Assembly: GCA_036925085.1 (NCBI GenBank)
Contig: JAUPFP010000120.1
Location: 139,501-203,500 of the forward strand
Reading direction: 5' to 3'
DNA: 64,000 nucleotides
DNA from: Brachycybe producta
Lineage: Eukaryota; Arthropoda; Diplopoda; Playtdesmida; Andrognathidae
The notes under the pieces were generated by a model. It had not been told where the DNA came from. It ran no database searches and saw nothing but the letters and a program-made list of their open reading frames with translations. A program made the position numbers and the translations under genes. Within the stretch, counting starts at the first letter, position 1; each line of letters begins with the position of its first letter. This document shows, piece by piece, positions 24,886 through 41,315 of the stretch.

Positions 24886-24932
24886 GAAACCAATTTTCAC
24901 TTATTTACAACACATTCATCTTTTCTAAAAAT

Positions 24933-26074: not shown

Positions 26075-26113
<39 letters not shown>

Positions 26114-26375
26114 TTTTGTTTTGTTTTGTTAATAATTTTTTATTTTACTTTTAGCTATTTTAAAGTTATTAGGTTTTATGTTTTTTAAATTGTTTTTTCA
26201 TTTTTAGTTTTTTAGTTTTTCAAGTTTTGTTTTTTAATTGGTTTTTATGAATAAAATGTTTAAAAGTTTTTTAAGTTTTGTTTTTTTTAATTGGTTTTAT
26301 GAATAAAATATTCAAAAGTTTTTTTGTAGTTTTTTTTTCACTGTTTAGTTTTTTGGTTTTTAAAAGTTTTTTAAA
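25444..26375 (+). repeat. T-rich tandem repeat carrying reiterated AATAAA signals
   Basis: Roughly 930 bp of TTTTTAGTTTTTAAAGTTTT-like sequence. A longer unit (TTGGTTTTTATGAATAAAATGTTTAAAAG then TTTTGGTATTCTTTG and TAGACTTCAGG) starts near 25523, 25792, 25940 and, shortened, 26238 and 26291. Each carries AATAAA. A pure T run of about 33 lies at 26080-26112. It lies just after the stop of the acidic protein gene, so several poly(A) sites are stacked there. Confidence 0.8.
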
Positions 26376-26399
26376 TACTTTATAAATAGTATGTGTTAC

Positions 26400-26986
26400 A
26401 AGAGCTAACTAAAGCTATTCATAAGATTGGCTATTTTACATTTTTTTTTGTTTCCATATTGATGCATTCTATAGCCTTGTTCTGTTTTCTATATTTTGTA
26501 TAACCTTGTTCTATTTTCTATATTTTGTATTGATGTCTTTCATAACCTTGAATTACTTCTTATTATTGGTGGTTTGTTTTTAATAGCTGAGTCTTCATTG
26601 GTCAATCTTTTTCATCAGGATAGCTAGTTGAGTATAAAAAGATTAAAATTTTATCATAGAATTCACATATCATCTTTTATTCTGAAAGCTTCACAGCAAA
26701 GACTGTCTATTGACATTTGGTCATCTTGCTTTTTACAAAAATCAACACTTCAGAAATTTTTTTACTGTGACTGCTGTTAAAATCAACACTCCACAACATT
26801 TTTTTAACTGTGACTACTGTTAAAATCAACACTTCAGAAATTTATTTGCTGTGGCTACTGTTCAAATCAACACAAATTCTTTCTTTTGTGCTGGTTGCTG
26901 TTATTTTTGCCATCTCTTCTATATTCTGTGTAAGACAGTGTTCGTCAAAACCTGATCATCTATAACATCAAAAACAACTTAACACA
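26400..26986 (+). promoter_or_regulatory. Promoter and leader of the PC4-like/polymerase unit
   Basis: A TATA box (TATAAAA, 26633-26639) is followed by a leader of about 320 nt. Within it a unit of about 42 bp beginning AAATCAACAC is repeated (starts at 26739, 26780, 26823 and, partial, 26864), each containing ACTGTGACTACTGTT or a variant. The first ATG after the array is 26987. Confidence 0.6.
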
Positions 26987-27607
26987 ATGCAGGATAATCA
27001 CGAGATCATTGGTGAGCATGGATTTTTTATCATAAAAGCCATATAGCTGATAATAGACATTTCACAAATCCTTTCTACTTTTCTACTATTTTTATTTGAT
27101 GGGGAATTTGCCTTTCTGATAGTTAAAACATACACATTTTCAAATTTCATAAAGTAGTCAATATCGCTTCTTAGAAAAAATTCTGAAAACATATTGATAG
27201 ACTTGACGGTAGAATCTGCAGTAACTGGCCGAAAAACAAAAAGGAAAACCGCACCAAAATCTGAAGTTGCAAAACGTCCAGCGAAGGCAATCGGCGAGGC
27301 GGGGCCATCTTCAGCTGTAGCGGAAGACACGATCAAAGAATGGTTTGGACGTCACCTCAGTAAATCGGAGGAAAAGAACACTTTACCAGATTTCAAAGTT
27401 CATGAAACTATCCCCGTCGAGGACAACTGGAAACTACGTATTCTCGAAAGTAATGAGAATTGGTTCATCGACATCCGTAAATATAGCATAGAAAATAAAT
27501 TTACTAAAGGGGCTTGTATTCCAGTTCATATTTACCCCCAGTTAATCACCAAACTTAATCAAGTTCCTACTGTTTTGGGTAAATTGGGATTTGATTTTGA
27601 AAAATGA
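26987..27607 (+). CDS. PC4-like Polinton protein with a SUMO-interacting-type motif (two exons)
   Basis: Exon 1 is 26987-27011 and exon 2 is 27201-27607; the GT..AG intron keeps the frame and gives 143 residues. The junction forms H-E-I-I-D-L-T-V-E-S, a textbook SUMO-interacting pattern (hydrophobic pair-D-L-T plus acidic tail) that exists only in the spliced product. Residues 19-40 are Lys/Arg-rich (K-T-K-R-K-T-A-P-K), like a nuclear signal. Residues 80-130 (W-K-L-R, then W-F-I-D-I-R-K-Y, then K-G-A-C-I-P-V and L-I-T-K-L) match the beta-strand and helix pattern of the PC4/p15 single-strand-DNA-binding domain. The stop overlaps the polymerase start as ATGA. A role as replication or transcription cofactor next to the polymerase is inference. 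The uninterrupted exon 2 frame has no ATG at its 5' end, which supports the splice. Confidence 0.65.
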
Positions 27608-30600
27608 GCTGTTTCATATGTGGGGATCCAGATAGCTCCATGGAGCATTTTCTCAATGCCCATGTTATTGGACCTATCAAAGAAAAATGTAATCTCTGCA
27701 ATTCACAATTTAATACTAAAACGGAATGGTTGGTCCATTTAAATAACACTCACGAAATATTTTTACCAGATTCTTTTATCGTACATAAAACGGGATTTGG
27801 GAGTGTATTAGTTACCTTAAAACACATGAATGGGAATAATATTCAGGATCCAAGGGACTATTTTCAACACGTCTATAATGATGTTACGAATTTGTTAGAG
27901 GGATGGTCTAATAAAATGAGATTTAAATTTCAATTATGTTTACGCATTCATTTTATGAAGCCAAAAATCATTTATGAAAACAATGAGTCAATAATGACTT
28001 ACGAAACCAATGATTCTTATTTTTGTAGTAATATGAAACTTATTATGCATCATTCAGAAATAAAACAGTACTTGCGAGAATGTGAAATGCAAATCTTAGG
28101 CGCAATAGAAGCTTTCATTAATAGAGGTTCGGGTTGGGTGATCGATTCCATCGAAGATGTAGAAATCAAAATTGGTAAATACAGACCGTATAAAGGGGGA
28201 TGTTCGGGAAAACTTCCCGTTTCATTAAAAAATAAGAAATCTATTTTAAATATCGCATCTAAAGATGCCAAATGTTTTTTATGGTGTATATTAGCTCATT
28301 TACATCCGGTCACGAGAGACAACCATCCAAATAGATTGAGCCACTATAAGAAATTAGAAGGTTCTCTGGATACATCCATGCTTGAATATCCCGTTGGTTT
28401 AAGCCAAATTTCAAAATTCGAAATTGCGAATAATCTCAAAATTAACGTTTTCGGTTACGATAAATTTGTGGTTCCTCTTCAGTTAAGCAATTCCAACTCA
28501 AATAGAGAAATAAATCTTCTTCTTCATGACAGGCACTACTTTCTCATTCGAAATATTGCTCGATTAATGGGACGTGATGGTTTAAACAAAAAATTTTTTT
28601 GCTTACGATGCTGCCAAGGGTTTAAAGTCGAAAGCGCTTTAGAAAGGCATCGTCCCATGTGTGAAGAGCATAAAACGGCCAAAATTCGGTTACCCAGCAA
28701 AGAGGATTGTGTTTTAAAGTTTAACGAGTTTCATAAAGCCTTGCGGTGCCCTTACGTAGCTTATTTTGATTTCGAAAGTCTCATCCAAAAAGTCAGTGGC
28801 CCAACTCAAAATCCGAGTACCTCCTATACCAAAACCATCCAAAAACACGAAGCTTGCTCGTATTCTTACGTTATCGTTGATTATCACGGTAAGGTTGTAG
28901 CTCACGAATGTAAAAGGTCCCAAGATCCTGCGTATGAGCTTGTCATGACGTTAAGAGACAAAGCCAGTGCATTGCTGAAATCAGCCCCAATAGAGCCTAT
29001 GATCATGACGAACGAAGATGAGGAAAATTTCCAGAAAACCACACACTGTTACGCTTGTCATACGGAGTTCAATGAGTTTATAACGGGCAAAGTAAGAGAT
29101 CATGACCACCATCTTCCGGGAAACAATTACAGGGGTGCAGCGTGCTTCAGTTGTAATGCAACCTTGCGTGACCGCTCTTACTTGCCATGTTTCGCTCATT
29201 GTTTACGTTCGTATGATGAGCATTTTATCGTTAAAGCCCTATCTAGGATTAAAACGGAAAAGCCCATTAACATTATTCCATTAAATATTGAGCGCTATAC
29301 GAGTTTCATCGTCGATGATCTCGTGTTTCTAGATAGTTTTCAATTCTTGTCCGCTCCACTCGCAACCCTCGCTCAAAATCTTTCTAAAGAGAAATTTAAT
29401 TGCGTTTCGTGGTTTTTCGAGGACCCTTCAAAAATTGATCTCATGACGCAAAAAGGACATTTTCCTTATGAATACTTGGACAGTCACTCAAAATTTGACG
29501 CAGTAGGCATTCCGGATAAAGCTTGTTTCAACAATACCCTGAATGAAGAAGTGATCTCTGATAAAGATTACGAGCACGTGAAAAAGGTATGGGAGACGTT
29601 CGGTTGTGAAACATTAGGCGATTACCACGATATTTACTTAAGAAGCGATTGTCTCATTTTGGCGGATGTTTTCGAAAATTTCCGAACTATTTCTTTTAAA
29701 AGTTTTGGACTAGATCCCGCGCATTATTTCACTTTGCCCATGTATGCATGGTCCGCCGCTTTGAAATACACAGAAGTTGAGTTGGAATTACTTACGGATT
29801 ATGATATGCACTTATTTATCGAAAAAGGTATTCGCGGAGGTGTTTCTGTTGCCAGCCACAGATACGCAAAAGCGAACAATCCCTATCTAAATGATTACGA
29901 TCCATCTAAGCCTAAATCTTATTTAGCCTATTGGGACTACAATTCCTTGTATGCTACGGCGATGTGCGAGCCCATGCCCATGAAAGATTTTTGTTGGTTA
30001 GATGAAAATGAGATCAAAACTTTTGACATCCATTCCATAAATCCAGATGACAAAGAGGGATACATATTAGAAGTGGATCTCGATTATCCCCTTGATTTAC
30101 ATTTTGATCATAGTGACTACCCTCTTTGTCCAGAAAGGCTCGATATTCACCTCGATATGCTATCTCCTTATGCTAAAGACCTTCTAAAAAAAGTAAAAGG
30201 AAAAGAACCCAAAAACTACAAGACGAAAAAACTCGCACCAAATCTTTATCATAAAAAACATTACGTGATTCATGTTAGAAATTTACAATGCTACTTAAAC
30301 CTGGGGATGAAATTAATCAAAATTCATCGTGTTCTTTCTTTTACCCAAGGTAAGTGGTTAAAGCCCTATATAGAATTTAACATTGCCATGCGTAAACTAG
30401 CAAAAGATGATTTCGAAAAAGACTTTTTCAAATTAATGAACAATGCCGTTTTCGGGAAAACGATGGAAAATCAAAGAAAAAAAATGAATGCCGAACTCGT
30501 TAATGAAAAAGAACGGTGTCTAAAATTACTCAGTCGCGCAAATTTAGACTCATTTCACATTATCGATAAGAATCTCACTGTTTTTAAAATGAAAAAATGG

Positions 30601-31203
30601 TCCATTTATTTTAACAAACCATTGTATACGGGTTTTACTGTGCTAGAAATATCGAAGTTGTTCATGTATGAATTTTATTATTATGTTCTGAAATCAAATT
30701 ATCCCGGAAATAGATTGAAATTGTTGTATACCGATACGGATAGTTTCATTATGCATATTCAAACGAAAGATTTGTACCATGACATGCAGCGTTACCAATA
30801 CCATTTGGATACGAGTGACTATCCAAAAAGTCACTTTCTGCACTCTCTTAAAAACAAAAAAGTTATGGGAAAATTTAAAGATGAAATGAATGGTGAACCT
30901 ATTTCGGAATTTGTGGCCCTAAAATCTAAAATGTATTCTATACTGTTAAATAGCCATAAGTATAAATGTAAAGCTAAAGGTATTAAGAAACAGATCGTTA
31001 AATCTCACTTCAATCATGATATGTACATTGAATCTTTGCATCAGTCTATTCCGAATAGGGTGATTCAACGGCAAATCATGTCTAAAATGCACGATATTTA
31101 CACTCTAGAAGTGAACAAAATCAGTCTTACCGCATTCGATGATAAACGTTATATTGAGAATGACGGAATTACTACCCTCGCTTATGGCTATTTTTCAATT
31201 TAA
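27604..31203 (+). CDS. polB: Protein-primed family B DNA polymerase
   Basis: 1199 residues, normal for Polinton polymerases. The N-terminus has zinc-finger-like Cys/His sets (C-F-I-C...H-F-L-N-A-H, C-N-L-C...H-L-N-N-T-H; residues 3-50) and another near 335-360. The 3'-5' exonuclease Exo I is Y-F-D-F-E-S (Asp389, Glu391). A Cys/His endonuclease-VII-like insert follows (C-Y-A-C at 482-485, D-H-D-H near 499, C-F-S-C-N). Exo III is near 674 (Y-H-D-I-Y-L-R-S-D). Polymerase motif A is W-D-Y-N-S-L-Y (Asp778), motif B is K-L-M-N-N-A-V-F-G (943-951) and motif C is Y-T-D-T-D-S (Asp1044, Asp1046). All catalytic residues are present. It replicates the element from protein-primed ends in the nucleus, as known for the family. 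The start overlaps the PC4-like stop (ATGA), implying translational coupling or leaky scanning. Confidence 0.97.
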   Translation: MSCFICGDPDSSMEHFLNAHVIGPIKEKCNLCNSQFNTKTEWLVHLNNTHEIFLPDSFIVHKTGFGSVLVTLKHMNGNNIQDPRDYFQHVYNDVTNLLEGWSNKMRFKFQLCLRIHFMKPKIIYENNESIMTYETNDSYFCSNMKLIMHHSEIKQYLRECEMQILGAIEAFINRGSGWVIDSIEDVEIKIGKYRPYKGGCSGKLPVSLKNKKSILNIASKDAKCFLWCILAHLHPVTRDNHPNRLSHYKKLEGSLDTSMLEYPVGLSQISKFEIANNLKINVFGYDKFVVPLQLSNSNSNREINLLLHDRHYFLIRNIARLMGRDGLNKKFFCLRCCQGFKVESALERHRPMCEEHKTAKIRLPSKEDCVLKFNEFHKALRCPYVAYFDFESLIQKVSGPTQNPSTSYTKTIQKHEACSYSYVIVDYHGKVVAHECKRSQDPAYELVMTLRDKASALLKSAPIEPMIMTNEDEENFQKTTHCYACHTEFNEFITGKVRDHDHHLPGNNYRGAACFSCNATLRDRSYLPCFAHCLRSYDEHFIVKALSRIKTEKPINIIPLNIERYTSFIVDDLVFLDSFQFLSAPLATLAQNLSKEKFNCVSWFFEDPSKIDLMTQKGHFPYEYLDSHSKFDAVGIPDKACFNNTLNEEVISDKDYEHVKKVWETFGCETLGDYHDIYLRSDCLILADVFENFRTISFKSFGLDPAHYFTLPMYAWSAALKYTEVELELLTDYDMHLFIEKGIRGGVSVASHRYAKANNPYLNDYDPSKPKSYLAYWDYNSLYATAMCEPMPMKDFCWLDENEIKTFDIHSINPDDKEGYILEVDLDYPLDLHFDHSDYPLCPERLDIHLDMLSPYAKDLLKKVKGKEPKNYKTKKLAPNLYHKKHYVIHVRNLQCYLNLGMKLIKIHRVLSFTQGKWLKPYIEFNIAMRKLAKDDFEKDFFKLMNNAVFGKTMENQRKKMNAELVNEKERCLKLLSRANLDSFHIIDKNLTVFKMKKWSIYFNKPLYTGFTVLEISKLFMYEFYYYVLKSNYPGNRLKLLYTDTDSFIMHIQTKDLYHDMQRYQYHLDTSDYPKSHFLHSLKNKKVMGKFKDEMNGEPISEFVALKSKMYSILLNSHKYKCKAKGIKKQIVKSHFNHDMYIESLHQSIPNRVIQRQIMSKMHDIYTLEVNKISLTAFDDKRYIENDGITTLAYGYFSI

Positions 31204-31251
31204 ACAAAATTTAGATAAAATCATTTGTTGTTCATTATAGAACCTACCATA

Positions 31252-31671
31252 ATGGTTAAGAGATTAAGCGATGCATGTGTCATCCCGAAGAAAATGAATA
31301 TGGGTGATGCCGGATATGATCTGTATTCTGCGGTGAACTGCACTATTAAACCTGGAGATAGAATGCTCTGTGCGACAGACTTATCCATGGCTATACCGTA
31401 TAATTCCTATGGAAGAATCGCACCAAGATCGGGCCCCGCGCTTCATTTTGGAATCGATGTTTTGGCCGGTGTCATTGATTCCAGCTACAGGGGAGCTATT
31501 AATGTTCTGTTAATAAATTTCGGAACCTATGATTTTTCTATTAAAAAAGGGGATAGAATTGCGCAAATCATTTTTGAAAAAATATACCCCGATGTGGAAT
31601 TTACAGAGTGCGATGTTGAACTCCCTCCAAGCACCCGTGGTGAGCTTGGGTTTGGCTCTACGGGAAAATAA
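31252..31671 (+). CDS. dut: dUTPase (trimeric type)
   Basis: 139 residues. All five motifs of trimeric dUTP pyrophosphatases are visible: motif 1 G-D-A-G-Y-D-L, motif 2 A-P-R-S-G, motif 3 G-V-I-D-S-S-Y-R-G, motif 4 G-D-R-I-A-Q-I and the C-terminal P-loop-like motif 5 R-G-E-L-G-F-G-S-T-G. It hydrolyses dUTP to dUMP and pyrophosphate, limiting uracil in DNA. The ATG at 31252 is the first in frame. A possible splice acceptor (TTCATTATAG) lies just before it, so the mRNA may be spliced from upstream. It lies 48 bp after the polymerase stop, on the same strand, and converges with the protease gene. It is not part of the usual Polinton core set, so it looks like an acquired accessory gene that would help replication in cells with low dUTPase. 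Confidence 0.95.
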   Translation: MVKRLSDACVIPKKMNMGDAGYDLYSAVNCTIKPGDRMLCATDLSMAIPYNSYGRIAPRSGPALHFGIDVLAGVIDSSYRGAINVLLINFGTYDFSIKKGDRIAQIIFEKIYPDVEFTECDVELPPSTRGELGFGSTGK

Positions 31672-31817
31672 GTATTTACTCGATGTAGTCCTATAAATGT
31701 TTATTCACGATTGTATACATCCCATAATGTTACATATACCCATTTTAATATATTTACTTTATATAAATAATATAATAATACATGTATTGAAAAGGTAAAG
31801 GGTAAATAAAAATGTAA
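31672..31817. terminator. Convergent 3' region between dUTPase and protease genes
   Basis: A 146-bp AT-rich gap. AATAAA on the + strand at about 31805 and TTTATT (AATAAA on the - strand) near 31699 can serve the two converging units, implying overlapping 3' ends. Confidence 0.5.
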
Positions 31818-32288
31818 TTAAAAAGCATACAGTGGTAAATATTTTTTTAGATTATAATTAATAAATGCGTGAACAATTTTATCATTTCGCAAATAATTAT
31901 GTCGATGAAACGTAGAAACGATACTTTTCATAGATACATTAGAACATCTTAAAATAGAATAAAAAATACAATATTGGCCACATACGGCCGTTCTCGAATG
32001 TTGGAGTCTACGTGCATTGTAAGTCCAGGAGAGACTGTTTCTCGTAATGAACTGATTTATCTCGTCCGTCATTGGCTTCATTCCGTAACTGTCAAAATAT
32101 TCAGCCATTCCATTATTGAAATAAATAGTGATCCAGTGAGATCCAGGCTCCGACCGCGCGTCCAGATTAACGATATAAAGTTTACGATTCACTCTAAAAG
32201 GAAGTTGGTCCCGTGCGAATACACCAGCAAACACAAAATGCGTGGCTGGATGATGAAATAATAAATATTCCAGTTGACTAGAATCCAT
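31818..32288 (-). CDS. Adenain-like cysteine protease
   Basis: 156 residues, slightly shorter than adenovirus protease. The catalytic set is in the expected order: His51 (G-S-H-W-I-T), Asp66 (Y-F-D-S-Y-G), the oxyanion Gln96 and the nucleophile Cys103 in A-V-C-G-Q-Y-C. The Gln-to-Cys spacing of seven is typical of C5/Ulp1-like proteases. In Polintons this enzyme is thought to mature capsid proteins. A matching cleavage site (M-T-G-G) occurs in the core protein of this element. It is the last gene of the leftward structural block. Its ATG follows the capsid stop by one base (TAA-A-ATG). Confidence 0.93.
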   Translation of the reverse strand: MDSSQLEYLLFHHPATHFVFAGVFARDQLPFRVNRKLYIVNLDARSEPGSHWITIYFNNGMAEYFDSYGMKPMTDEINQFITRNSLSWTYNARRLQHSRTAVCGQYCIFYSILRCSNVSMKSIVSTFHRHNYLRNDKIVHAFINYNLKKYLPLYAF

Positions 32289-32289
32289 T

Positions 32290-33615
32290 TTAATAATCTA
32301 TGATAACATTGCGATGATGATCCACTTCGATAATGGACTGGTAGATGGAATAAACGATGACATTCACCGTTGTGTTCAATGGATTTTTAAATTTCATATT
32401 GAGCCGTAAAGATCCGTTTTTACTCAAGTTGAAATGGGATCCTGATAGAGCACTTTGATCATTGGTGAGATCGAAGGCATAAAGAGAATAGCCGTTTTTA
32501 AATTCCTCGAACGTCACATCTACACCGTCTGTGCCATAATACTTGCGGCACGCAGAAAATAGCTGCTGATAAAGATGACCGTATTCTTTCGTACTGAAAT
32601 TTGGACTGAACTGTATCCCCGGAAACTGGGTACCATCTACCTGTAGCTCGAGAAAACTAAGGTCCTTGTAATGAAAATGAAAAGGATTCTTTTTTAAATT
32701 TCCAGCTCGTGCATCACTATCAACGAGTCCAATCATAACGAAACTCGGTAATATGCCATTACAAATGTTGATGTTAATATCGTGGCCGCCGCTAGGTTCA
32801 CTGAAAGAAGTGCATTTGATTCGGTTGATGGGATAAATAAAATTAGACTTCAACGACTGCTCAATATGCGTTTTAACGATAGATGGATTTGGTATCACTT
32901 TTCGTACATAGAGGGTAGCAGATCTAATATCCACTTTGTAATCATTTTTGTCACTATCTGGTTTCAGTAAACAAAAGGCATCTTTTTGACGAATTAATTT
33001 AATGGAGAGATCGAGCATATTAGGTAAGAGCCGCCCCTGATGAAATATATCTCCGTGAAGACGTCCGCACATATCCATAATAGCACTCGCTTTTGATCTT
33101 TCGAAGCGTTGCGCTAATCCATCTGCCGGATCGGCGGTGGATGGTTTACGATCTTTAAAGGCAGCGATGGTGTCTTTGTAGAACATCTCCAGAGATAAAT
33201 AAGGTTTATTCCCGGTGTTTTCGCTGCCTAGAAGGGTCGTTAAATAAGCTTTATATCCATAATCGTGATCAGTGGAACTAATAATCGTATGCCCGAGAGT
33301 AACCGTAATTTCACTAAAAAGTGAGTGAAAAAACCCATTTATAGGTGTGACTTCGCAAATAGCGTCCAATGGTTTTCCGTCCGCTTTTAAGATTCTTGCC
33401 TTCACATTCAGGTAAATATCAGAAGGATCTATGTATTCATCGGCATTTCCCATGATATTGAACTCTATCGTATTTTGGTCTTCGATACTGTTCACGGGAT
33501 GGTATTCCTTAATGCAGTCATCCCGATTACTCGTTTGCGTCGCGGGCACGGTAAAAATATCCAATTCACAACTCATCCCGGGCCCCGAGTCATGATGTAC
33601 GAGAAAGCCGCTCAT
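32290..33615 (-). CDS. Major capsid protein (double jelly-roll)
   Basis: 441 residues. The N-terminus has M-S-C-E-L-D-I-F-T-V-P-A-T-Q-T-S, followed by I-E-F-N-I-M-G, Y-I-D-P-S-D-I-Y-L and V-T-P-I-N-G-F-F-H-S-L-F-S. This order is the signature of Polinton and adintovirus-type major capsid proteins (in databases often labelled F54H12.2-like). The remainder is beta-rich, as expected for two stacked jelly-rolls. It would form the icosahedral shell as trimers. The start ATG lies two bases after the core-protein stop (TAA-AC-ATG). The frame is intact over its length. Confidence 0.93.
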   Translation of the reverse strand: MSGFLVHHDSGPGMSCELDIFTVPATQTSNRDDCIKEYHPVNSIEDQNTIEFNIMGNADEYIDPSDIYLNVKARILKADGKPLDAICEVTPINGFFHSLFSEITVTLGHTIISSTDHDYGYKAYLTTLLGSENTGNKPYLSLEMFYKDTIAAFKDRKPSTADPADGLAQRFERSKASAIMDMCGRLHGDIFHQGRLLPNMLDLSIKLIRQKDAFCLLKPDSDKNDYKVDIRSATLYVRKVIPNPSIVKTHIEQSLKSNFIYPINRIKCTSFSEPSGGHDININICNGILPSFVMIGLVDSDARAGNLKKNPFHFHYKDLSFLELQVDGTQFPGIQFSPNFSTKEYGHLYQQLFSACRKYYGTDGVDVTFEEFKNGYSLYAFDLTNDQSALSGSHFNLSKNGSLRLNMKFKNPLNTTVNVIVYSIYQSIIEVDHHRNVIIDY

Positions 33616-33617
33616 GT

Positions 33618-34094
33618 TTATAGGAGATTCACGAAATTGCTAGTTTTTCTTTTTTTACCCGAAGCTTTCTTTGCTGCGGTTTTCCTTTTCTTAGCGACTT
33701 TCTTCTTCGATGCTTTCCTTTTCACTGTACGCTTCGTACTGGCCACGGTTCTTCTATTTCCAGATGTTTTAGTCGTTTTCCGGCGCTTAGCTCCACCTGT
33801 CATTGTCTTCAAAAATTCATGCCCGGCTTCCGTTCCACGCCTTTTTAAGGCACTTTTGAAAGATTCCCCCGCTTCAATATCGGATACGACGTTAGTTCCA
33901 GACTTTAACAACTGCTTACTTGCTGAGAGGGCTCCTTTTTTCAAAAAAGGGATCACGAAACGATATAACGAAGAGAAAAATCCGTGTCCCCGCTGATATT
34001 GAGATCCCACGAAGACGGGTAAAGAGGATCCAATTTGTTTATGATAATTATAACACGGATCAGACGCTGATCCACAATAGTAAGGCACCCTCAT
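33618..34094 (-). CDS. Basic core/precursor protein with adenain-type cleavage site
   Basis: 158 residues from the ATG at 34094, chosen because it forms ATGA with the upstream stop; an in-frame ATG 18 bp earlier (34112) is also possible. Residues 30-60 hold a conserved Polinton pattern (S-Q-Y-Q-R-G-H-G-F-F then an amphipathic stretch ending P-F-L-K-K-G). M-T-G-G at 98-101 followed by A-K-R-R-K fits the adenovirus protease rule (M/I/L-x-G-G then cut). The last 57 residues are almost all Lys, Arg, Thr, Ser and Ala, like adenovirus pVII/pX or protamine, suited to condensing DNA. A membrane-active N-terminal part and a DNA-binding C-terminal part, separated by the protease, is the likely design. 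It sits between penton-like and capsid genes. Confidence 0.8.
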   Translation of the reverse strand: MRVPYYCGSASDPCYNYHKQIGSSLPVFVGSQYQRGHGFFSSLYRFVIPFLKKGALSASKQLLKSGTNVVSDIEAGESFKSALKRRGTEAGHEFLKTMTGGAKRRKTTKTSGNRRTVASTKRTVKRKASKKKVAKKRKTAAKKASGKKRKTSNFVNLL

Positions 34095-35458
34095 TTGTGA
34101 AAAATGGAACACGGACGAAAATGAACTGTGGCTATCACTACGTCTCCACTGGTAAATAAAATTTTACGTCCAAAGACATCGCTTATACGCACTTCGATAC
34201 TATGTATACTATCACGTGATACTCTTTTGTACTGTAGTTGATTGTAGATTTTGGTAACTCTCATTCCATCAGAATCCTGAAGATGAACGGGCCTCAATAA
34301 AGGTGAAAGTATATCCCCCACCGGCTGGTACTCGATGCAGTCGATATACACGAATAAGGAATGAATATCACGCTGAATATCCGAAAGAAAGTCGGCCACC
34401 TTAATAATGGGAAGTTCCGACGTATTGCTAAGATAGTCCTCTTGAAACCCGAGCATTCTTTGTATTTTTTCAGAGAATTGAATGCTTGAATTGGGCTGAA
34501 CGGTAACTTCTACACGTGACGTTGTATTCCGATATTTGAACCAAGGATTCTTTTCACTATTTAATCTCGGATTAGCGATATTGTCCATTCGTGTTTTGCT
34601 TTCTAACAATTGCTGATGATAATCTTTCATATTTTGTAGATCTTGTTTTGACTTGGCTAAATTTTCTTTTTTTTCATCATACGAGGACTTTAAAATATTG
34701 TAATTAAATTCATTCGCTTCTTTTTGTAAACGAACCGGATTGATGAGTTTATCTTTGGTATCTTTATCGTCAGTCTTCTTTTTTTGTTCGTCTTGTATTT
34801 TTTGTTGTAAGACATTAACGAGACGCTGAATGGCTTCATCCCGTTTTCCATCGGGTCCAGGTATGAGGCCTTTTTGATGTTGTAATTGATTTTCGAGCTC
34901 GTTTATTTTGTTTTGATATTCCATTTGACTGGTATTCTTATCCTTAACGAGATTCTGATAGTTGGTGCGTGATTCCTCGCACGTTTTGAACATGACATTC
35001 ACATTGTCCGCAGTTGTTTGCACCCTGGCTTCTTCTATTACCATATTTTCTTCCTCTTTGTCTATATTAGCTGTAGATTTGTCTATTTTTTTAATCAATT
35101 CATTTTTGCTCGATTGAATCGAGGGATGCCTCAAATGAAGGGGCCCGAAATATTCATCGATATGAGAGTTGATGGCATTCACGAGAAATCCGGGAGAATG
35201 ATACGCCCCGCTAGGAACGCTAATATTGATGCTTAGGCTCCGCTCCAGATCTCTGATAATAATTTCACCTTCCTTTTCATCTGCAATCTTTAACCAGGTA
35301 CGTGAAAAATGAATCTCAGCCAAGGCAACTTCGTAATCTCCAGTAATTTCGATGGGTTTTGGGAGTTTCACGGTGTAATTCGTTAAAGTGTTGTCCGGAT
35401 AATATTTCATACTGCTATTACTCGGCAGTGTCACGTAAAAGTCTTGAGACTCGGTCAT
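34091..35458 (-). CDS. Minor capsid (penton-like) protein with long coiled-coil insertion
   Basis: 455 residues. The N-terminal pattern F-Y-V-T-L-P-S-N-S-S, P-D-N-T-L-T-N-Y-T-V-K-L-P and Y-E-V-A-L-A-E-I is the usual start of the Polinton minor capsid/penton-like family. The C-terminal part (L-F-V-Y-I-D-C-I-E-Y-Q-P-V-G-D and S-I-E-V-R-I-S-D) is also conserved. Between them, about residues 115-300, lies a Lys/Glu/Gln-rich region with heptad character that looks like an inserted coiled coil. It lies between integrase and core genes, with ATGA overlaps at both sides. The jelly-roll assignment comes from family knowledge; surface projection or receptor function of the coil is only a possibility. 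Confidence 0.75.
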   Translation of the reverse strand: MTESQDFYVTLPSNSSMKYYPDNTLTNYTVKLPKPIEITGDYEVALAEIHFSRTWLKIADEKEGEIIIRDLERSLSINISVPSGAYHSPGFLVNAINSHIDEYFGPLHLRHPSIQSSKNELIKKIDKSTANIDKEEENMVIEEARVQTTADNVNVMFKTCEESRTNYQNLVKDKNTSQMEYQNKINELENQLQHQKGLIPGPDGKRDEAIQRLVNVLQQKIQDEQKKKTDDKDTKDKLINPVRLQKEANEFNYNILKSSYDEKKENLAKSKQDLQNMKDYHQQLLESKTRMDNIANPRLNSEKNPWFKYRNTTSRVEVTVQPNSSIQFSEKIQRMLGFQEDYLSNTSELPIIKVADFLSDIQRDIHSLFVYIDCIEYQPVGDILSPLLRPVHLQDSDGMRVTKIYNQLQYKRVSRDSIHSIEVRISDVFGRKILFTSGDVVIATVHFRPCSIFHK

Positions 35459-36519
35459 TTTTGTAGTTGTTTCAAATCTCCCGCTTTAATCCAACTGTTG
35501 TGTTTATCAGCGTATCCTTTCCACTTCACCAAAAGTTGCCGGTGCTGTCCTTTTCCTTTTTCAGCTACAACTTTTTCTACCCTCCAAAAATCGCTGTCTT
35601 TCTTGTCAATTTTTTGAAGTTCTTCCTCGTAAAACGTACCTTCTAATAGTTCTCCATCAATATCCACGAGACGGTATACCGAAGGTATTCGGTCGATACG
35701 CGCAGAGATGGTGAAAACTTCGTCCGACCAATTGGGTAAGTAACCTTTTTCGAAAGTTAGCTTCGTCTTGGAAATACGAACACGGTCACCTACTTTGAAC
35801 TTGGGCAATCTACTATTGGCTGATGGAAACAATCGTTTAAATACATCTTTTTCATTGGTAGATGAGACTTTCTCCGGAGCCATGCCAATGCTTCTATGAT
35901 ACGATGCATTGTATCCTTTCACCAGATGACTCAACTTATCAATGTACTGATAATTCCCTTTCGCTGTAAAATACCTCCACATGCGTGATTTCAAAGTTCT
36001 ATTAAAACGTTCGACAACGGCAGCTTTGACTTCGTTAAAAGTGGTATAAAATCCAATACCATTTTCTTTGAGAAAGGTCTGAAAGTTCTTATTCAGGAAT
36101 TCTTTACCCCTATCCGATTGAATTTTTCTCGGCTTCCTTCCATCTCGCAGAATAATTTTTGAAGCAGCGATCATTTCCTTTCCAGTTTTTTGTTTTAATG
36201 GTTGAACCCAAGCATGTTTTGAAAAAACATCGATACAAGTTAAAAGATAGTTGTAACCCTTATTCTCTTTTTTGTAAGACTGCATATCCACGAGATCCAT
36301 CTGCCATACATCGTCTATTTTACTGACCAATGTTCTATTTCTCGTAAATGTTCTTCTCACTGGTTTATGTAAAGTGTAGACATCTTGCGTTCGTAACCAG
36401 GCTTCAATTTCACCCCGAGTAAATTTCTTTCCAGTTGCCGCATGAAGGCGGTCCACACCTCCGAAAGACCCGCTGGAGGATGGATCATAATAAATTTTTT
36501 TGAGTTCTTTGTTTTTCAT
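35455..36519 (-). CDS. Retroviral-like integrase with chromodomain
   Basis: 354 residues from the ATG at 36519, chosen for its ATGA overlap with the preceding stop; an in-frame ATG 12 bp upstream exists. The catalytic triad is Asp75 (W-Q-M-D-L-V-D), Asp136 (Q-S-D-R-G-K-E-F) and Glu170 (A-V-V-E-R-F-N-R-T-L-K). After a small beta-rich segment with K-V-G-D-R-V-R-I there is a C-terminal chromodomain (F-W-R-V-E-K-V and L-V-K-W-K-G-Y..H-N-S-W-I). It inserts the element with 6-bp duplication, as seen at its ends. The chromodomain may steer insertion to modified chromatin. All key residues are intact. Confidence 0.95.
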   Translation of the reverse strand: MKNKELKKIYYDPSSSGSFGGVDRLHAATGKKFTRGEIEAWLRTQDVYTLHKPVRRTFTRNRTLVSKIDDVWQMDLVDMQSYKKENKGYNYLLTCIDVFSKHAWVQPLKQKTGKEMIAASKIILRDGRKPRKIQSDRGKEFLNKNFQTFLKENGIGFYTTFNEVKAAVVERFNRTLKSRMWRYFTAKGNYQYIDKLSHLVKGYNASYHRSIGMAPEKVSSTNEKDVFKRLFPSANSRLPKFKVGDRVRISKTKLTFEKGYLPNWSDEVFTISARIDRIPSVYRLVDIDGELLEGTFYEEELQKIDKKDSDFWRVEKVVAEKGKGQHRQLLVKWKGYADKHNSWIKAGDLKQLQK

Positions 36520-37118
36520 GATTCTTCCCATACGGGACGGTTAGATTCTTTGGTTTCTGGATGATAATCCCATCGCTTGTCGTTAGCTATGAGAGATCGA
36601 GGTACATTCATTTTTTTCAGCTCCGTGATAAATGGCTCCCATCCTGGGGGCTCGTATCTAGTTTTACTGATAACGAGATCTCTAGTAAGGTCCATAATAT
36701 TGGTATTCGGCACGACTTGACCATTTATCAGAAGCTGATGCGATGAATTCCAACTTAATGGCCCTCTACCATCTTTTATCAAATTGAGAAGACGACCGGC
36801 CTTCTTCTGTTGTGTCTTCGGCAGTTGGTTAACTATATCGCTGATACCTGATGATTGTTTTTCTTCAATGGGACTCGAAAAACCAGGGTCCTCTAATGTC
36901 ACTTTCGTTACCTCTTTGGGTCTGTTCTCATAAATGGATTTATACCGGTGTTGTAATTGTCCTAGAAGTAAAACCTTATTGTAGTTATCCAAGTTTTCTT
37001 CTTCTAAAATACGTTGAATGGCCTTTTCAATGTCTCTTAGAGTACGTTGAACGGGCGTTTTATTTTCTTGTCTTTCTCGATATTGAGCTTCCCAAGATTC
37101 AGCGGGGATGAGGATCAT
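36516..37118 (-). CDS. Conserved Polinton protein, unknown role
   Basis: 200 residues from the ATG at 37118, which forms ATGA with the upstream stop; the open frame extends 23 codons further up but those overlap the neighbour. It begins M-I-L-I-P-A-E-S-W. It has a helical, charged middle and a conserved C-terminal pattern (D-G-R-G-P-L-S-W-N, I-N-G-Q-V-V-P, N-I-M-D-L, P-P-G-W-E-P-F and L-K-K-M-N-V-P). I recall this pattern as common in animal Polintons and related viruses, always near the integrase, but no function is known to me. A virion or packaging role is a guess from its place between the membrane-active protein and integrase. Confidence 0.7.
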   Translation of the reverse strand: MILIPAESWEAQYRERQENKTPVQRTLRDIEKAIQRILEEENLDNYNKVLLLGQLQHRYKSIYENRPKEVTKVTLEDPGFSSPIEEKQSSGISDIVNQLPKTQQKKAGRLLNLIKDGRGPLSWNSSHQLLINGQVVPNTNIMDLTRDLVISKTRYEPPGWEPFITELKKMNVPRSLIANDKRWDYHPETKESNRPVWEES

Positions 37119-37474
37119 TTTCTCGGCCATGATGTTATTAAACCCGTTAACATCGACAATACGGGAGAAATTAACAGCGGAAGCCAACCCCCTTTTTGTT
37201 TGACGAGAAAGTTTTTCTTCGACTTTGGAGATGCTTTCGTAGTCACTAATTTATTCAGTACATGGCTATAGGGTCGTAACTTTCTTTTTTCACGTTCACT
37301 CAGTACAATGTTAGAGTTCCCAATATTATGCGCGCAATCACACAAACACTGAATAAAATCCAAGTTGGAGTTCTTTAGAAGTTCTTTTTGAAGTCGCGGA
37401 TTACTTTCCACAGCTACGTGTAATCTGTGAATGTTACGATCGAGACGTGAAGGAATTTTTTGACTTACTTTCAT
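37115..37474 (-). CDS. Small protein with hydrophobic C-terminal segment
   Basis: 119 residues. The N-terminal two thirds are basic and helical (L-S-E-R-E-K-R-K-L-R-P, then K-K-N-F-L-V-K-Q-K-G-G). The C-terminus is a hydrophobic stretch (L-P-L-L-I-S-P-V-L-S-M-L-T-G-L-I) ended by S-W-P-R-K. The layout, with K-Q-x-G-G before a hydrophobic helix, recurs in Polinton/adintovirus genomes and suggests a membrane-active virion protein, comparable in role to adenovirus pVI; that analogy is inference. Both ends overlap neighbours by ATGA (ATPase upstream, conserved protein downstream). Confidence 0.7.
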   Translation of the reverse strand: MKVSQKIPSRLDRNIHRLHVAVESNPRLQKELLKNSNLDFIQCLCDCAHNIGNSNIVLSEREKRKLRPYSHVLNKLVTTKASPKSKKNFLVKQKGGWLPLLISPVLSMLTGLITSWPRK

Positions 37475-38307
37475 CGTTGTTTAGGTAAAAATACAGCGGT
37501 ATACTCTCCCGGAAATATATTCGTTCTGAGCCTAGAATTGTCATCCGCATTCTGCGTGAGATCAATCATCAAGTAACTGTACGGATCACGAGTACTCTGG
37601 TTAAAGGCATCGATCATAAACTTGGTGTTACCAGGATACATCTGATGAGACAAATGAGCAATTTGAGATTTGTCACGAGGGTTTTTAAAAAGAACCAGAT
37701 AAGAGGCATTCAAAGAAATGGTGCGCTGATACGGGTTCTTGTCAAAAATATTTTGAGTAATAAATATAACACTTATATTTCTATGATGCGAATCACACGT
37801 AAAGAGCTGAGAAACACCCCTATCCACATCTTGAAACAGATCGTCGAGTACAATAAGCTGGTTTCTATCGCATCTTAGAGTCTTCATGTCAGGCATTCCT
37901 TTTAGAAATGTCGCTCGAGTCCCATAAAGTGAATACCAGTCTTGATATTGAGAATAGTACCACGTTACTCTTTCCGGTGGGGGTTTAATCATTCCCCTGG
38001 CATGATCCAAAATTTTCTTAACGAAGGTTGTTTTCCCGCAATTGCTGGGACCGGCAATAATCATCCTAAACGGTGCCTTCAATGGAATGAAGGAACCCTC
38101 TTTTTCCATGATCGATACGGAATGTTGCGGTAGTTGTATATTGGCAGGTGCTTCCGTTTTAGTAGAAATAGCGATGTTCGTTGTTTCGAGGATAAGCATA
38201 AGAGCCCCTATGCAGCCCATAACGATGTATTTTATACTCGGTTTCCTTTTTTGCGACATCACCGTTTCCTCTATCGTTAAGCGCGATATTTCATCTTGCT
38301 CTACCAT
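37471..38307 (-). CDS. Genome-packaging ATPase (FtsK/HerA, A32-like)
   Basis: 278 residues. Walker A is I-I-A-G-P-S-N-C-G-K-T-T (86-94) and Walker B is L-I-V-L-D-D (Asp155, Asp156), followed by S-V-I-F-I-T-Q-N. This is the order of A32-like viral packaging ATPases that drive DNA into capsids. Residues 1-66 form an unusual extension with a probable membrane segment (about 27-48) after a basic patch. The codons for S-I-K-Y inside it spell TATAAAATA on the coding strand, a good TATA box about 120 bp before Met67. A shorter protein from Met67 (ATG at 38109) is therefore an alternative and would still contain the full ATPase core. The stop forms ATGA with the next gene. Confidence 0.93.
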   Translation of the reverse strand: MVEQDEISRLTIEETVMSQKRKPSIKYIVMGCIGALMLILETTNIAISTKTEAPANIQLPQHSVSIMEKEGSFIPLKAPFRMIIAGPSNCGKTTFVKKILDHARGMIKPPPERVTWYYSQYQDWYSLYGTRATFLKGMPDMKTLRCDRNQLIVLDDLFQDVDRGVSQLFTCDSHHRNISVIFITQNIFDKNPYQRTISLNASYLVLFKNPRDKSQIAHLSHQMYPGNTKFMIDAFNQSTRDPYSYLMIDLTQNADDNSRLRTNIFPGEYTAVFLPKQR

Positions 38308-38351
38308 TTTAGCTTCAAGAATGTAACGAGAATGAGTACATAGCGTGATAT

Positions 38352-38720
38352 TTATTCAGTATTAGTACAAGCTTTGAAAATTTCACATCGCCACTCATAT
38401 TCTAACCAATGGTCGATCAGATACAAAATTCCTTGAATGATGACGCTTCTAATCGGTTTGGCATATTCGATCCAGCGGTTTAACACAAATAAGACATTCA
38501 CACTCTCGAATAAATCATTTATTTTTTTCCTTTCGTATTCCTCGGGATACATCGTACAAAAATGTGTCGGAACTTGACTTCCATCACCCGCTTTTAGGAG
38601 TTCGTCTTGATGAACACAGTCAGCACACGCTTTATTCCAACCTGGTAATTTTATCATGGTTTTTATCGCATCACGAGCTTGCGCGCGAATACCAGGAAAA
38701 TCCGTTGGCGTATACAACAT
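38352..38720 (-). CDS. Cys-containing Polinton accessory protein, unknown
   Basis: 122 residues. Near the middle is C-A-D-C followed by H-F-C, which could bind a metal (Cys48, Cys51 and a Cys/His pair about 20 residues later are approximate). The C-terminal half is helical (W-I-E-Y, W-L-E-Y-E-W). The ATG is directly preceded by TTTTACTCAG-A, a good splice acceptor. Its stop codon overlaps AATAAA (CTGAATAAATA), so its mRNA may end before the ATPase unit. I recognise no family. Confidence 0.6.
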   Translation of the reverse strand: MLYTPTDFPGIRAQARDAIKTMIKLPGWNKACADCVHQDELLKAGDGSQVPTHFCTMYPEEYERKKINDLFESVNVLFVLNRWIEYAKPIRSVIIQGILYLIDHWLEYEWRCEIFKACTNTE

Positions 38721-38749
38721 TCTGAGTAAAATAAATTGTACATATTAGC

Positions 38750-39310
38750 TTATTTCTGTTTTTGTACCCATAATCCAAAAATATAAGCCTCATTTTTTGC
38801 ACAATGTGCTATTCCATTTCTCCGTTTTTTATGACGACTACACGTATAGTCAACTTCTTGAGGGCCAAAGATTGTCAGTAAATTCTCATATTTCATACAA
38901 AGGCCTAGTTTCTCGAGGTTTATGCTAGGAATATTTAATTTCATTAATACATTTTTTTCCACAGTGCCCCCCTTATAAGCAAATAAGGCATTTGAATTTT
39001 TCTCAGAGGCATGCGTATACAAGCTACGTAAAACATTCAGAAATGTTGAAAATGTGATATCATCAATATCATTTCTATAAGAAAGACCATGAATATGTGC
39101 CGTCACGAATTGCATTGTTCTGACATCCTTTTCAGTAAACAGTCTATTTTGAGGAAGTCGAATAAACATATTATGCGGGTGTGGATCACCGATAGTATAG
39201 TATCCCAATTCCTTAATGTAAAAATCACTTCCAATTTGAAATCCATCACAATCAATAACGGTGGATATATTGCCGAAAATAGGCATTCTGGAAATTAATT
39301 TTTCATTCAT
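38750..39310 (-). CDS. DEDD-exonuclease-like accessory protein
   Basis: 186 residues if the first ATG is used; an acceptor (AATTTCCAG-A) just before Met9 (ATG at 39286) suggests a spliced start there. The pattern V-I-D-C-D-G-F, F-Y-I-K-E-L-G, H-I-H-G-L-S-Y, K-G-G-T-V-E-K and C-S-R-H...H-C-A-K-N-E-A resembles a family of RNase-H-fold, 3'-5' exonuclease-like proteins often carried by mobile elements and viruses of invertebrates. The catalytic set looks incomplete (D-x-D at the first motif and H-x-A-K at the last), so it may be non-catalytic. It is the first gene leftward from a divergent promoter shared with the RING gene. Confidence 0.6.
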   Translation of the reverse strand: MNEKLISRMPIFGNISTVIDCDGFQIGSDFYIKELGYYTIGDPHPHNMFIRLPQNRLFTEKDVRTMQFVTAHIHGLSYRNDIDDITFSTFLNVLRSLYTHASEKNSNALFAYKGGTVEKNVLMKLNIPSINLEKLGLCMKYENLLTIFGPQEVDYTCSRHKKRRNGIAHCAKNEAYIFGLWVQKQK

Positions 39311-39630
39311 AAGGCTGAATCAAACCGAGAAAAGAAAAAACATACCTAATGCCGTGAAATCCGAGGCTTCGGGTAATGAGTAGATCTTGCCATAGCGTAT
39401 ACGTTTCTCCAAGTACTTATACCCCTTAGCTTATTCCATTCTTGTTTCCAAGGGGTGTAAATAAATCTCAGCCTTGACAAAACAAGAATAAACGTGTTCA
39501 GACATGTTTAGGCTTGTTCAAACACGCCTTGATGTGGTCCAAAGGGTGTGTCTAAATCATGAACTTATGAACACATGTATAGGCATGATGACTCATCTGT
39601 CTAATCTGTCCTACTGAAATACTCCTGAGG
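39311..39630. promoter_or_regulatory. Divergent promoter region with a p53-type response element
   Basis: A 320-bp region lies between the leftward exonuclease-like gene and the rightward RING gene. Positions 39500-39519 read AGACATGTTTAGGCTTGTTC: two abutting half-sites that each fit RRRCWWGYYY exactly. An AP-1 word TGACTCA is near 39590. A TATA-like GTATAAG on the - strand lies near 39418. A donor-like TTAG-GTATGT on the - strand is at 39346/39345. Confidence 0.55.
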
Positions 39631-40246
39631 ATGTACCATGTCTGGTCCCCGTTAACACTATTTCTCATACCTAATGTTAATTTTTCGGAGCATGATAATT
39701 CCCGAGCCTATTGTCAAACCTTGGTTGGGCATGATGCAATTATGTCTTCTTATAATTCATGTATTCCATTTGTAGACATTGCATCTGATTCTGAAACGGA
39801 GCCTGAAACTGTCTCGAATGCCTCTACTAGAAGTGCTGCAGTTAATAGACATCCAATTGTCTATCTCGATGACTCCAGTAAGTAATTAGATTGGATGTAA
39901 AAAAATTTAAAAAAAAAATAATGAAATTGCAACTGCAGATGACACGACCGATAGTGAAATTCTCCTCCAGCTGATGGGAAATCCACCTGTAAGCCGAAAA
40001 GAAGAACTTCTGGAGAAACTACTACCCTACGATGATGAAGAAACGGCCACTATCAAATATTGTACTATTTGTTTAGTGAAGGGTGCACGGGTTGTATTTG
40101 ACCCTTGTAAGCATCAAGCTGCCTGTAAGGCATGTACAACAACGTTATTAGAAATGGAAAGTTTTTTATGCCCAGTGTGTAGAAACCCCATTTCAAATGT
40201 AATTGATGTTTACCAGCCCTTAACAGACTTATTGCCAATTCAATGA
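39631..40246 (+). CDS. RING finger protein (two exons), possible SUMO-directed E3
   Basis: Exon 1 is 39631-39877 and exon 2 is 39939-40246, joined across GTAAGT..CTGCAG in frame; the product is 184 residues. The C-terminal C3HC4 RING has C-T-I-C, then C-K-H, C-K-A-C and C-P-V-C-R, in the style of IAP-type RINGs; no BIR domain is present. The N-terminal half is acidic with two hydrophobic-acidic words, F-V-D-I-A-S-D-S-E-T-E and P-I-V-Y-L-D-D-S, that resemble SUMO-interacting motifs. This suggests a ubiquitin ligase acting on SUMOylated or apoptosis-related substrates. It lies next to, and converges with, the Bcl-2-like gene. The RING is clear; substrate ideas are inference. Confidence 0.75.
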
Positions 40247-40287
40247 ATATCATCTAAAATAAAACCTGAAGTTCTTTTATATATTGA

Positions 40288-40373
40288 ACACTTCTGCAAC
40301 AGACCTCTGCCTGCCTTGGGATACCAAGTTTGCTATCCCTAAGCAGGCAGAGGTCTGTGGAATGCAGAAGTGT
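40288..40373 (+). ncRNA. Pre-miRNA-sized hairpin in the RING/Bcl-2 3' region
   Basis: The arms pair 40288-40298 with 40363-40373 (11 bp), 40299-40314 with 40343-40358 (16 bp, perfect, with GGAA bulged on the 3' side) and 40318-40323 with 40334-40339 (6 bp) around a 10-nt loop. The length of 86 nt and the single bulge resemble a microRNA precursor. It lies between convergent genes, so it could also act in 3'-end formation or be double-stranded RNA. There is no evidence of expression. Confidence 0.45.
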
Positions 40374-40430
40374 CATGAGTTATTATAAAGAAATGAAACA
40401 ATACTGCAAAAAATTTCAGCATGTAACATT

Positions 40431-40907
40431 TTATTGCATTCGTATTAATAAATATAACAAAGTGCTAATCATCAGTAATTGCGGAACCACATGAATAACG
40501 TTACTCGGAGTGTTGTTAGGTGTTGCGTAGACATCCTGCATCGCAGCCCATGATCCATTATCTCGAAGCCACGATGCCGATGACTTGAACACGTATTCAC
40601 CAATATGCACTGCCGTTGCTTCCTCGAATCCGGATCTTGCCAGTTGGAGGACGAGTGCGTAAGTCACTATAATTTTACCGAATGATGGTAATCCTCGATA
40701 AATTTCGTCCAACAAGAAGGTTAATTCTTGGTTCAAATGTGACACAGTTTTTAAAGTTGTTGCTATGGATTCGAAAGCTTGAATATCCTTATTTCGAGCT
40801 TGTTCGGCGAGTTTGTAAATTGTTCGTGAAAAGTTGGAATTCACGGTTTCGTGCGATTGCTTGGCTATATGATACACATCAATGGCAATTTTAGTAGATT
40901 CCTGCAT
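40431..40907 (-). CDS. Bcl-2-like protein
   Basis: 158 residues from the first ATG (40907); the open frame continues 11 codons upstream without ATG. BH1-like L-P-S-F-G-K-I-I-V lies at 73-81, preceded by E-I-Y-R-G, and BH2-like W-L-R-D-N-G-S-W at 113-120 is followed by M-Q-D-V-Y. A hydrophobic C-terminal anchor spans about 137-156 (V-I-H-V-V-P-Q-L-L-M). Order, spacing and tail anchor match Bcl-2 family proteins, probably the multi-domain anti-apoptotic kind known from DNA viruses. BH3 and BH4 are not clear. On the - strand a TATATAG lies about 110 bp upstream (near 41020). Pairing with a RING gene suggests control of host-cell death by the element. Confidence 0.85.
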   Translation of the reverse strand: MQESTKIAIDVYHIAKQSHETVNSNFSRTIYKLAEQARNKDIQAFESIATTLKTVSHLNQELTFLLDEIYRGLPSFGKIIVTYALVLQLARSGFEEATAVHIGEYVFKSSASWLRDNGSWAAMQDVYATPNNTPSNVIHVVPQLLMISTLLYLLIRMQ

Positions 40908-41117
40908 GTTGAACACCTTATTTGTAAAAGCTAAGCACAACTAACATTAAAAAGTATAAAAGTGGTAGGCCTTCATATATATATATATGCATAGTATGAA
41001 TTAAAGCTTCTCACCTTCTATATACAAAACAACAAAGTCGTGAAAACAAGTTTCTTTATCATCACAGTAGGTGGTATCTAGAAGTTTTAAACTTCTTTCT
41101 CTGAGAAGCAAAAAAAA
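40908..41117. other. Promoter-like gap before the right terminal repeat
   Basis: Contains TATATAG on the - strand near 41020 serving the Bcl-2-like gene and a TATAAAA on the + strand near 40954 that points outward with no gene behind it. An (AT)n tract lies at 40977-40989. Confidence 0.4.
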
Positions 41118-41315
41118 ACTGGGTCAAAGTTTTTTTTTCTTATGATGAAGCATTATAACATAGCTATGTCTCTATAGCTTATAAACTGGTTGGCCTTGTG
41201 GTGCAGAAATGACTCAATGAGAGTCTATGGGAGATTGGAATGTGGAGCTCGAAATGAGGTCACCATAGTAGTCTATGGAGAAAAGTGGTGCAGAAATGAC
41301 TTTTCCTATACTACT
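41118..41315 (-). repeat. Right terminal inverted repeat of the Polinton
   Basis: Positions 41198-41315 are the exact reverse complement of 23844-23961. The inner part (41118-41165) again matches the left end after an indel-rich gap. It is followed by the target duplication AGCTCT (41316-41321). Confidence 0.95.

Follow-up and report, generated by a model that had tools for sequence, protein, structure and literature searches.

Stop-start proximity in the structural gene block of a Brachycybe producta Polinton

Eukaryotic mRNAs seldom give more than one or two proteins; how, then, would an animal nucleus express a run of eight open reading frames (ORFs) that meet almost without spacers? The question is posed by a Polinton in the genome of Brachycybe producta, within a 64,000-nucleotide (nt) stretch of contig JAUPFP010000120.1 (assembly GCA_036925085.1, positions 139,501 to 203,500 of the forward strand), hereafter the window. 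Read on the minus strand from 38307 to 31818, its structural block consists of ATPase, p119, p204, integrase, penton-like, core-like, capsid-like and protease ORFs (Table 1). Pfam supports the integrase, the ATPase and a dUTPase, and the names penton, core and capsid are those of an earlier sequence-only reading. That reading had described regular coupling through ATGA, where the ATG of one ORF overlaps the TGA of the preceding one, and had suggested an operon-like arrangement with polycistronic mRNA and termination-reinitiation. We found that the kept feature is stop-start proximity, not ATGA, and that junction type drifts. The block is likely to be co-expressed and subject to a distance rule.

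Stop-start spacing in the window and its relatives

From ATPase to protease, the gaps in the window are -4, -16 (or -4), -16 (or -4), -4, -4, +2 and +1 nt. All six ATGA strings that had been reported exist, and the core/capsid and capsid/protease junctions read TAA-AC-ATG and TAA-A-ATG as claimed. As a junction, ATGA is unambiguous at ATPase/p119, integrase/penton, penton/core and PC4-like/polymerase, whereas at p119/p204 and p204/integrase a second in-frame ATG lies 12 nt farther upstream.

The same-genome sample comprised 20 structural-block pieces, whose readable copies were grouped in four families: A, the window; B (L035 and L036; capsid identity 78 and 77%); C (L037-L042 plus L048, placed by its junctions; about 71%); and D (L043, L044 and L046; 70, 68 and 67%). 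The foreign sample consisted of 14 loci (L001-L014) on contigs in bacterial metagenome-assembled genomes (MAGs) that encode a related integrase. The source MAGs include Limnohabitans, Nomurabacteria, Ignavibacteria, and tubeworm and mussel symbionts, and the Polinton genes there are probably eukaryotic contamination. Six foreign lineages were tallied, L001, L002, L008, L009, L010 and L011 (capsid identity 46, 34, 27, none read, 28 and 27%), giving 72 junctions over ten lineages, with gaps entered by hand and tight defined as -25 to +10 nt.

Across this sample 65/72 junctions were tight, the distance of a few nt from the upstream stop that is seen in calicivirus-type reinitiation; the gap was exactly -4 in 18 and -8 in ten. 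The seven outliers fell in L002 (+37, +121, +63 and +40), L008 (+54), L010 (+34) and L011 (-38). In the four same-genome families all 28 block junctions were tight, nine of them at exactly -4, so that proximity is retained in other Polintons of the same genome. Among 20 near-identical copies, the junction letters agreed in 19 at penton/core and in 20 each at core/capsid and capsid/protease.

The overlaps themselves were less constant. Over A-D and L001, overlap type varied at six of seven junctions, at p204/integrase by a shift of 1 nt only (Table 2). ATGA as a conserved signal was accordingly rejected on the ten-lineage comparison except at ATPase/p119 and PC4-like/polymerase; of the regular coupling that had been described, the proximity is what relatives keep. 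The ATPase/p119 gap is -4 in 8/10 lineages (A, B, C, D, L001, L009, L010 and L011), +37 in L002 and +57 in L003, with the p119-like ORFs of L002, L003, L009 and L010 assigned by position and size only; the broken locus L013 (+56) was left out of the count.

Relatives also bear on the two ambiguous junctions. At p119/p204, the in-frame ATG at 37130 extends what had been read as a 200-aa protein to 204 aa, with a 16-nt overlap. Since this start is conserved (by-eye translation gives MAEKM for A, B and C and MAQKM for L001), the ATGA here is probably an internal Met. The integrase ATG at -16 occurs in A and L001, the C copies L038-L040 and L042, and the D copy L046; L001 lacks an ATG at -4. Both integrase starts are possible, because only the -4 ATG has A at -3 (A and C, by eye), while the -16 ATG is kept in relatives.

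Additional genes join the chain in foreign loci. L008, L009 and L011 have one or two extra small ORFs with hydrophobic stretches between integrase and penton, chained at block spacing (-1/-8, -8/+1/-4 and -4/-11/+2, respectively), and L011 has 11 consecutive junctions of -38 to +2, from polymerase through protease. The extra small ORF of L002 lies +40 after the integrase and -17 to the penton. In the short loci L004-L007 the integrase/penton gaps are -8, -4, -17 and -4, with wider gaps at other junctions (in L005, for instance, +44 and +57). In L001, a second penton-like ORF (6444-7703, 419 aa) lies 50 nt past the protease stop.

Table 1. Coordinates of the Polinton, its ORFs and its junctions in the window
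Feature	Position	Strand	Basis or remark
Polinton	23844..41315	n/a	inverted ends AGTAGTATAGG / CCTATACTACT; flanking target-site duplication AGCTCT
Packaging-ATPase-like ORF, 278 aa, first of block	37471..38307	-	Pfam Pox_A32 25.9 bits, cut-off 22.8
p119 ORF, function not assigned	37115..37474	-	ORF list, Pfam scan
p204 ORF, function not assigned	36516..37130	-	ORF list, Pfam scan
Integrase with chromodomain, 358 aa	35455..36531	-	Pfam rve 2.1e-15, Chromo 6.3e-08
Penton-like ORF, 455 aa	34091..35458	-	name from sequence-only reading, without Pfam confirmation
Core-like basic ORF, 158 aa	33618..34094	-	name from sequence-only reading
Capsid-like ORF, 441 aa	32290..33615	-	name from sequence-only reading; begins 2 nt past core stop
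Adenain-like protease ORF, 156 aa	31818..32288	-	begins 1 nt past capsid stop
ATGA, ATPase/p119	37471..37474	-	unambiguous
p119/p204 overlap, 16 nt from conserved MAEKM start (37130)	37115..37130	-	contains ATGA 37115-37118
p204/integrase overlap	36516..36531	-	ATG at -16 (36531) and at -4 (ATGA 36516-36519)
ATGA, integrase/penton-like	35455..35458	-	unambiguous
ATGA, penton-like/core-like	34091..34094	-	unambiguous
PC4-like gene	26987..27607	+	putative exons 26987-27011 and 27201-27607, predicted intron 27012-27200
ATGA, PC4-like/polymerase	27604..27607	+	-4 in 4/4 families
DNA-polymerase-like ORF, 1199 aa	27604..31203	+	ORF list, L011 similarity
Loose gap p122/ATPase, 44 nt	38308..38351	-	AATAAA spans p122 stop in A, B and C
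Loose gap p186/p122, 29 nt	38721..38749	-	T-rich-CAG directly before ATG

Table 2. Gaps (nt) at block junctions, off-frame ATGs in the 150 nt before each start (observed/expected), and synonymous z of the last 20 codons of the upstream ORF (family pairs pooled, not independent)
Junction	A	B	C	D	L001	Off-frame ATGs	Synonymous z
ATPase/p119	-4	-4	-4	-4	-4	8/5.9	0.5
p119/p204	-16	+1	-1	+5	+4	2/3.3	0.0
p204/integrase	-16	-17	-16	-16	-16	15/12.5	0.0
integrase/penton	-4	-8	-14	-14	-17	5/9.7	-0.1
penton/core	-4	+2	-4	-4	+6	5/10.0	3.1
core/capsid	+2	-4	+3	+2	+1	1/1.0	-0.7
capsid/protease	+1	+5	+2	+1	+8	13/11.0	-2.0

Coupled translation, nested transcripts and other readings

We tentatively favor a reading in which the eight ORFs form one co-expressed unit, carried by host-made nuclear mRNAs that hold several ORFs, with reinitiation at some or all junctions plus likely internal 5´ ends. 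A ribosome finishing one ORF would restart at the next ATG, which has A at -3 and lies no more than about 25 nt from the stop; overlap type would be free to drift and distance not free to grow. The polymerase would be made by the same coupling from a spliced PC4-like/polymerase mRNA, and p186 and p122, as well as the ATPase as head of the block, would have mRNA 5´ ends of their own. Candidate places for coupling are ATPase/p119, PC4-like/polymerase and capsid/protease.

Polycistronic mRNA with termination-reinitiation, as had been suggested, is the best single reading of the kept distance, the start context, the ATGs upstream of the protease and p204 starts and the spliced-looking PC4-like gene. 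A at -3 was found at 28/33 tight starts and 8/10 loose starts, versus 34% of 740 internal ATGs. For the protease in A-E, the distance from the nearest upstream ATG to the start is 21, 67, 13, 12 and 8 nt; for p204 in A-C it is 23, 37 and 38 nt. Coupling also accounts best for the retention of distance rather than sequence and for the block spacing at which extra genes join.

Several results weigh against it. A calicivirus-type termination upstream ribosomal binding site (TURBS), an 18S-complementary motif 40-80 nt upstream with UGGGA as its core, was not indicated: UGGGA occurred in 3/33 upstream stretches versus a 5.4% background, in a scan for this generic core and not for a motif derived from the host 18S. 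Simple folding detected no stable fold upstream of the starts, with z-scores scattered around zero, and AATAAA was not depleted in the block ORFs (observed versus expected 4/4.7 in A, 6/7.2 in B, 10/9.9 in C and 4/2.7 in E). Synonymous conservation preceded tight starts only at the penton end, before core, and not before p119, p204, integrase, penton or protease; z was also raised at the ends of p186 (2.6) and the protease (2.9), neither of which precedes a tight start. In most families no ATG occurs for at least 120 nt ahead of penton and capsid, as internal capped transcripts need. Moreover, the tallied lineages are not independent, L008-L011 coming from one MAG, and L002 has four loose gaps of +37 to +121. 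Finally, the capsid, as ORF number seven, would receive too few ribosomes under serial reinitiation.

With the capsid only seventh in line, additional 5´ ends inside the block are probable; they would most likely lie before penton, core or capsid and would supplement coupling. The arrangement that we hold most likely is a mixture: internal 5´ ends upstream of the abundant virion proteins, with coupling at some junctions. In the strict form, single nuclear mRNAs of serial-reinitiation operons would carry seven to eleven junctions and would depend on good start context and on stop-start distance, with no calicivirus-type TURBS, the arrangement having been kept despite protein divergence (capsids 27-46% identical to foreign lineages); this form appears unlikely.

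Internal capped transcripts are a strong rival, and the data leave coupled translation and nested capped mRNAs undivided. If the block simply reflects compaction, the promoter of each gene would lie inside the preceding gene and each protein would be translated from the first ORF of a 3´-co-terminal mRNA, a layout found in compact DNA viruses such as virophages, with the short overlaps as a packing limit; we regard this as a substantial possibility. Nested mRNAs would permit an abundant capsid and are the best account both of this seventh ORF and of the ATG-poor leads before penton and core, where off-frame ATGs are fewer than expected (Table 2). They are also in line with the synonymous conservation at the penton end and with the promoter motifs reported upstream of ORFs in virophage elements (PMC8547959, in the part available). 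Before the capsid, the first 150 nt lack an ATG in A-D, and the nearest is at 141 in E; as a scanning signature this lead was rejected, since amino-acid composition explains it (1 observed versus 1.0 expected). Scanning ribosomes would be trapped by the ATGs that precede the protease start by 8-21 nt in A, C, D and E, unless the 5´ ends lay extremely close by. Such ATGs are plain obstacles only in C and E, because in D the ATG is in frame and in A it begins a frame of four codons that stops ahead of the start (by eye). Nested mRNAs are likewise at odds with the lack of synonymous conservation before most tight starts, and with the spacers of 29-44 nt that the neighbors p186, p122 and ATPase keep. 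Since about 24% of the element lies outside named ORFs, the block is tighter than the element requires, and the difference in kind of the loose neighbors suggests that tight spacing is not mere packing.

Splicing would give each ORF its own mRNA, through a cis leader from an element end or a trans-spliced leader joined before each ORF, and seems improbable here on the scores of acceptor-like and donor-like sites. A crude 3´-splice-site score of at least 0.9 was reached at 5/10 loose starts versus 8.9% of 964 other ATGs, and the PC4-like gene looks spliced. Only 2/33 tight starts reached that score, in contrast to the acceptor before every ORF expected of spliced-leader operons. Donor-like sites occur near both element ends, at 24221 (+, 9/9) and 41014 (-, 8/9). 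The scan of right-end sequence from families B and C (L062 and L063, without the final few hundred bases ahead of p186 in C, which lie in L040) gave no 8/9 donor, and a cis leader from the element ends was rejected, the donor not being kept there.

A chance origin or annotation artefact, in which a handful of ATGAs happened to stand out among numerous ORF borders, is very unlikely: two of the five block ATGAs do follow an in-frame ATG by 12 nt, and the closest integrase homologs listed (P0085-P0088, beginning MGG, MAR, MER and MAR) are incompatible with ATGA, but tight spacing is kept across lineages, the alternative starts are tight too, and ATPase/p119 is mostly -4. The second-residue test of ATGA compatibility in homolog proteins (22/120 integrases, 17/23 pentons and 24/57 Met-initial capsids among those listed) was set aside once DNA of relatives had been obtained.

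Loose neighbors, the polymerase pair and the element

Upstream of the block, gaps are wider: 29, 32 and 35 nt at p186/p122 and 44, 39 and 41 nt at p122/ATPase in A, B and C. All ten loose starts have AG at most 12 nt before the ATG, tending to follow a T-rich run, lead-ins that would suit splice acceptors or transcription starts. The two donor-like sites, AAGGTAAGT (24221, +) and AAGGTGAGA (41014, -), lie 378 and 302 nt inside the ends in similar surroundings and are possible leader exons.

For the PC4-like/polymerase pair, the ATGA at 27604 stood up as reported; the PC4-like ORF, however, is listed only from TTG, without an ATG of its own. The gene probably starts in an upstream exon, as it fits two exons with a 189-nt phase-1 intron, and families C and D likewise (by eye). 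Since it looks spliced, it would be carried on a capped nuclear mRNA, with the polymerase following at ATGA. The polymerase-like ORF had no match to Pfam DNA_pol_B at E 0.01 and is 23% identical (E 5e-13) to an L011 ORF that matches DNA_pol_B_2.

Homolog families were found for the capsid-like and penton-like proteins, neither of which has a match in Pfam or PDB. The penton-like protein, at 455 aa, is longer than 21/23 homologs listed (255-308 aa), and its extra length resembles a coiled-coil insertion. The protease match to Peptidase_C5 (E 0.0082) is below the family cut-off.

The element is 17,472 bp long and has Polinton hallmarks: terminal inverted repeats (126-nt arms, 98% complementary), a 6-bp target-site duplication, AGCTCT on both sides, and a retrovirus-like integrase. 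A search of the host genome (295 Mb, 442 contigs searched) with the capsid gave 108 matches; the best 20 of 108 were all full length and reported as 100% identical, so the window family was recently active. Near-identical capsid copies stand beside diverged families, a picture of recent, repeated activity of several Polinton families. Relatives were not found in IMG/VR in the scans made, and an Rfam scan of the window gave no match.

Other genes of the element include, in its left part (25015-26300, +), an acidic 142-aa ORF of unassigned kind followed by degenerate tandem repeats (25469-26300); a RING-finger ORF (39974-40246, +; zf-C3HC4_3, 4.9e-12) on the strand opposite to its neighbors; and, as first right-end ORF (40431-40907, -), a weakly Bcl-2-like one (E 0.0012, below the family cut-off), which in family B seemingly occurs twice in tandem (L062:1960-2286 and 2437-2757). 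Elsewhere in the genome, COX1-like copies on nuclear-size contigs (G000:C1:12697416-12698753 and C17:4027703-4029047) are probably mitochondrial insertions. The mitochondrial contig itself is readable with the invertebrate code and, judged by eye, has an arthropod look.

Known systems and significance

The element resembles Polintons/Mavericks and animal adintoviruses in its chromodomain integrase, inverted ends and 6-bp duplication, and probably in its packaging ATPase, adenain-like protease and polymerase. Tectiviruses belong to a double-jelly-roll lineage considered related to Polintons. The gap distribution of the tectivirus L17 (PRD1/L17) is similar, with 21/25 junctions within -25 to +10; "operon-like" is thus a fair description of the block's spacing, which is kept across large sequence distance. 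L17, however, uses bacterial transcription and translation, and in it -1 is commoner (5/25) and -4 rarer (2/25) than in the Polinton block.

Among systems using eukaryotic ribosomes, calicivirus VP1/VP2 is alike in its stop/start overlap: the frames overlap by 1-8 nt and reinitiation proceeds through a TURBS of 40-80 nt (PMC4090194, accessible part). That is an RNA virus with one such junction, whereas the element here is DNA with seven or more junctions and no UGGGA excess or fold. The victorivirus HvV190S shows coupled reinitiation without a TURBS, using an upstream pseudoknot (PMC4090194, same part); simple folding, which does not cover pseudoknots, saw no conserved fold in the Polinton block. 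Mavirus-like virophage elements (EMALEs) are alike as compact integrated elements, with intergenic regions of 5-10% of the element in the accessible text of PMC8547959, and differ by their reported promoter motifs, which were sought here through TATA-like words only.

"Virion protein operons" is the phrase of a preprint on adintovirus-related elements (PMC11071296, available portion). Neither coupled translation nor a conserved stop-start chain in Polintons was described in the literature accessible to us, including the available parts of PMC11071296, PMC11071308 and PMC10120064; this coverage is incomplete and novelty is provisional.

For annotation, the comparison suggests that distance from the preceding stop be weighed together with the first ATG when Polinton gene starts are placed. 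The expression of Polinton virion genes is an open question that the stop-start chain makes testable. If the proposed coupling is true, a nuclear DNA element would provide a natural system for serial reinitiation, with nearly all starts of its particle genes kept no farther than about 25 bases from the stop ahead of them in relatives whose capsids are only 27-46% alike.

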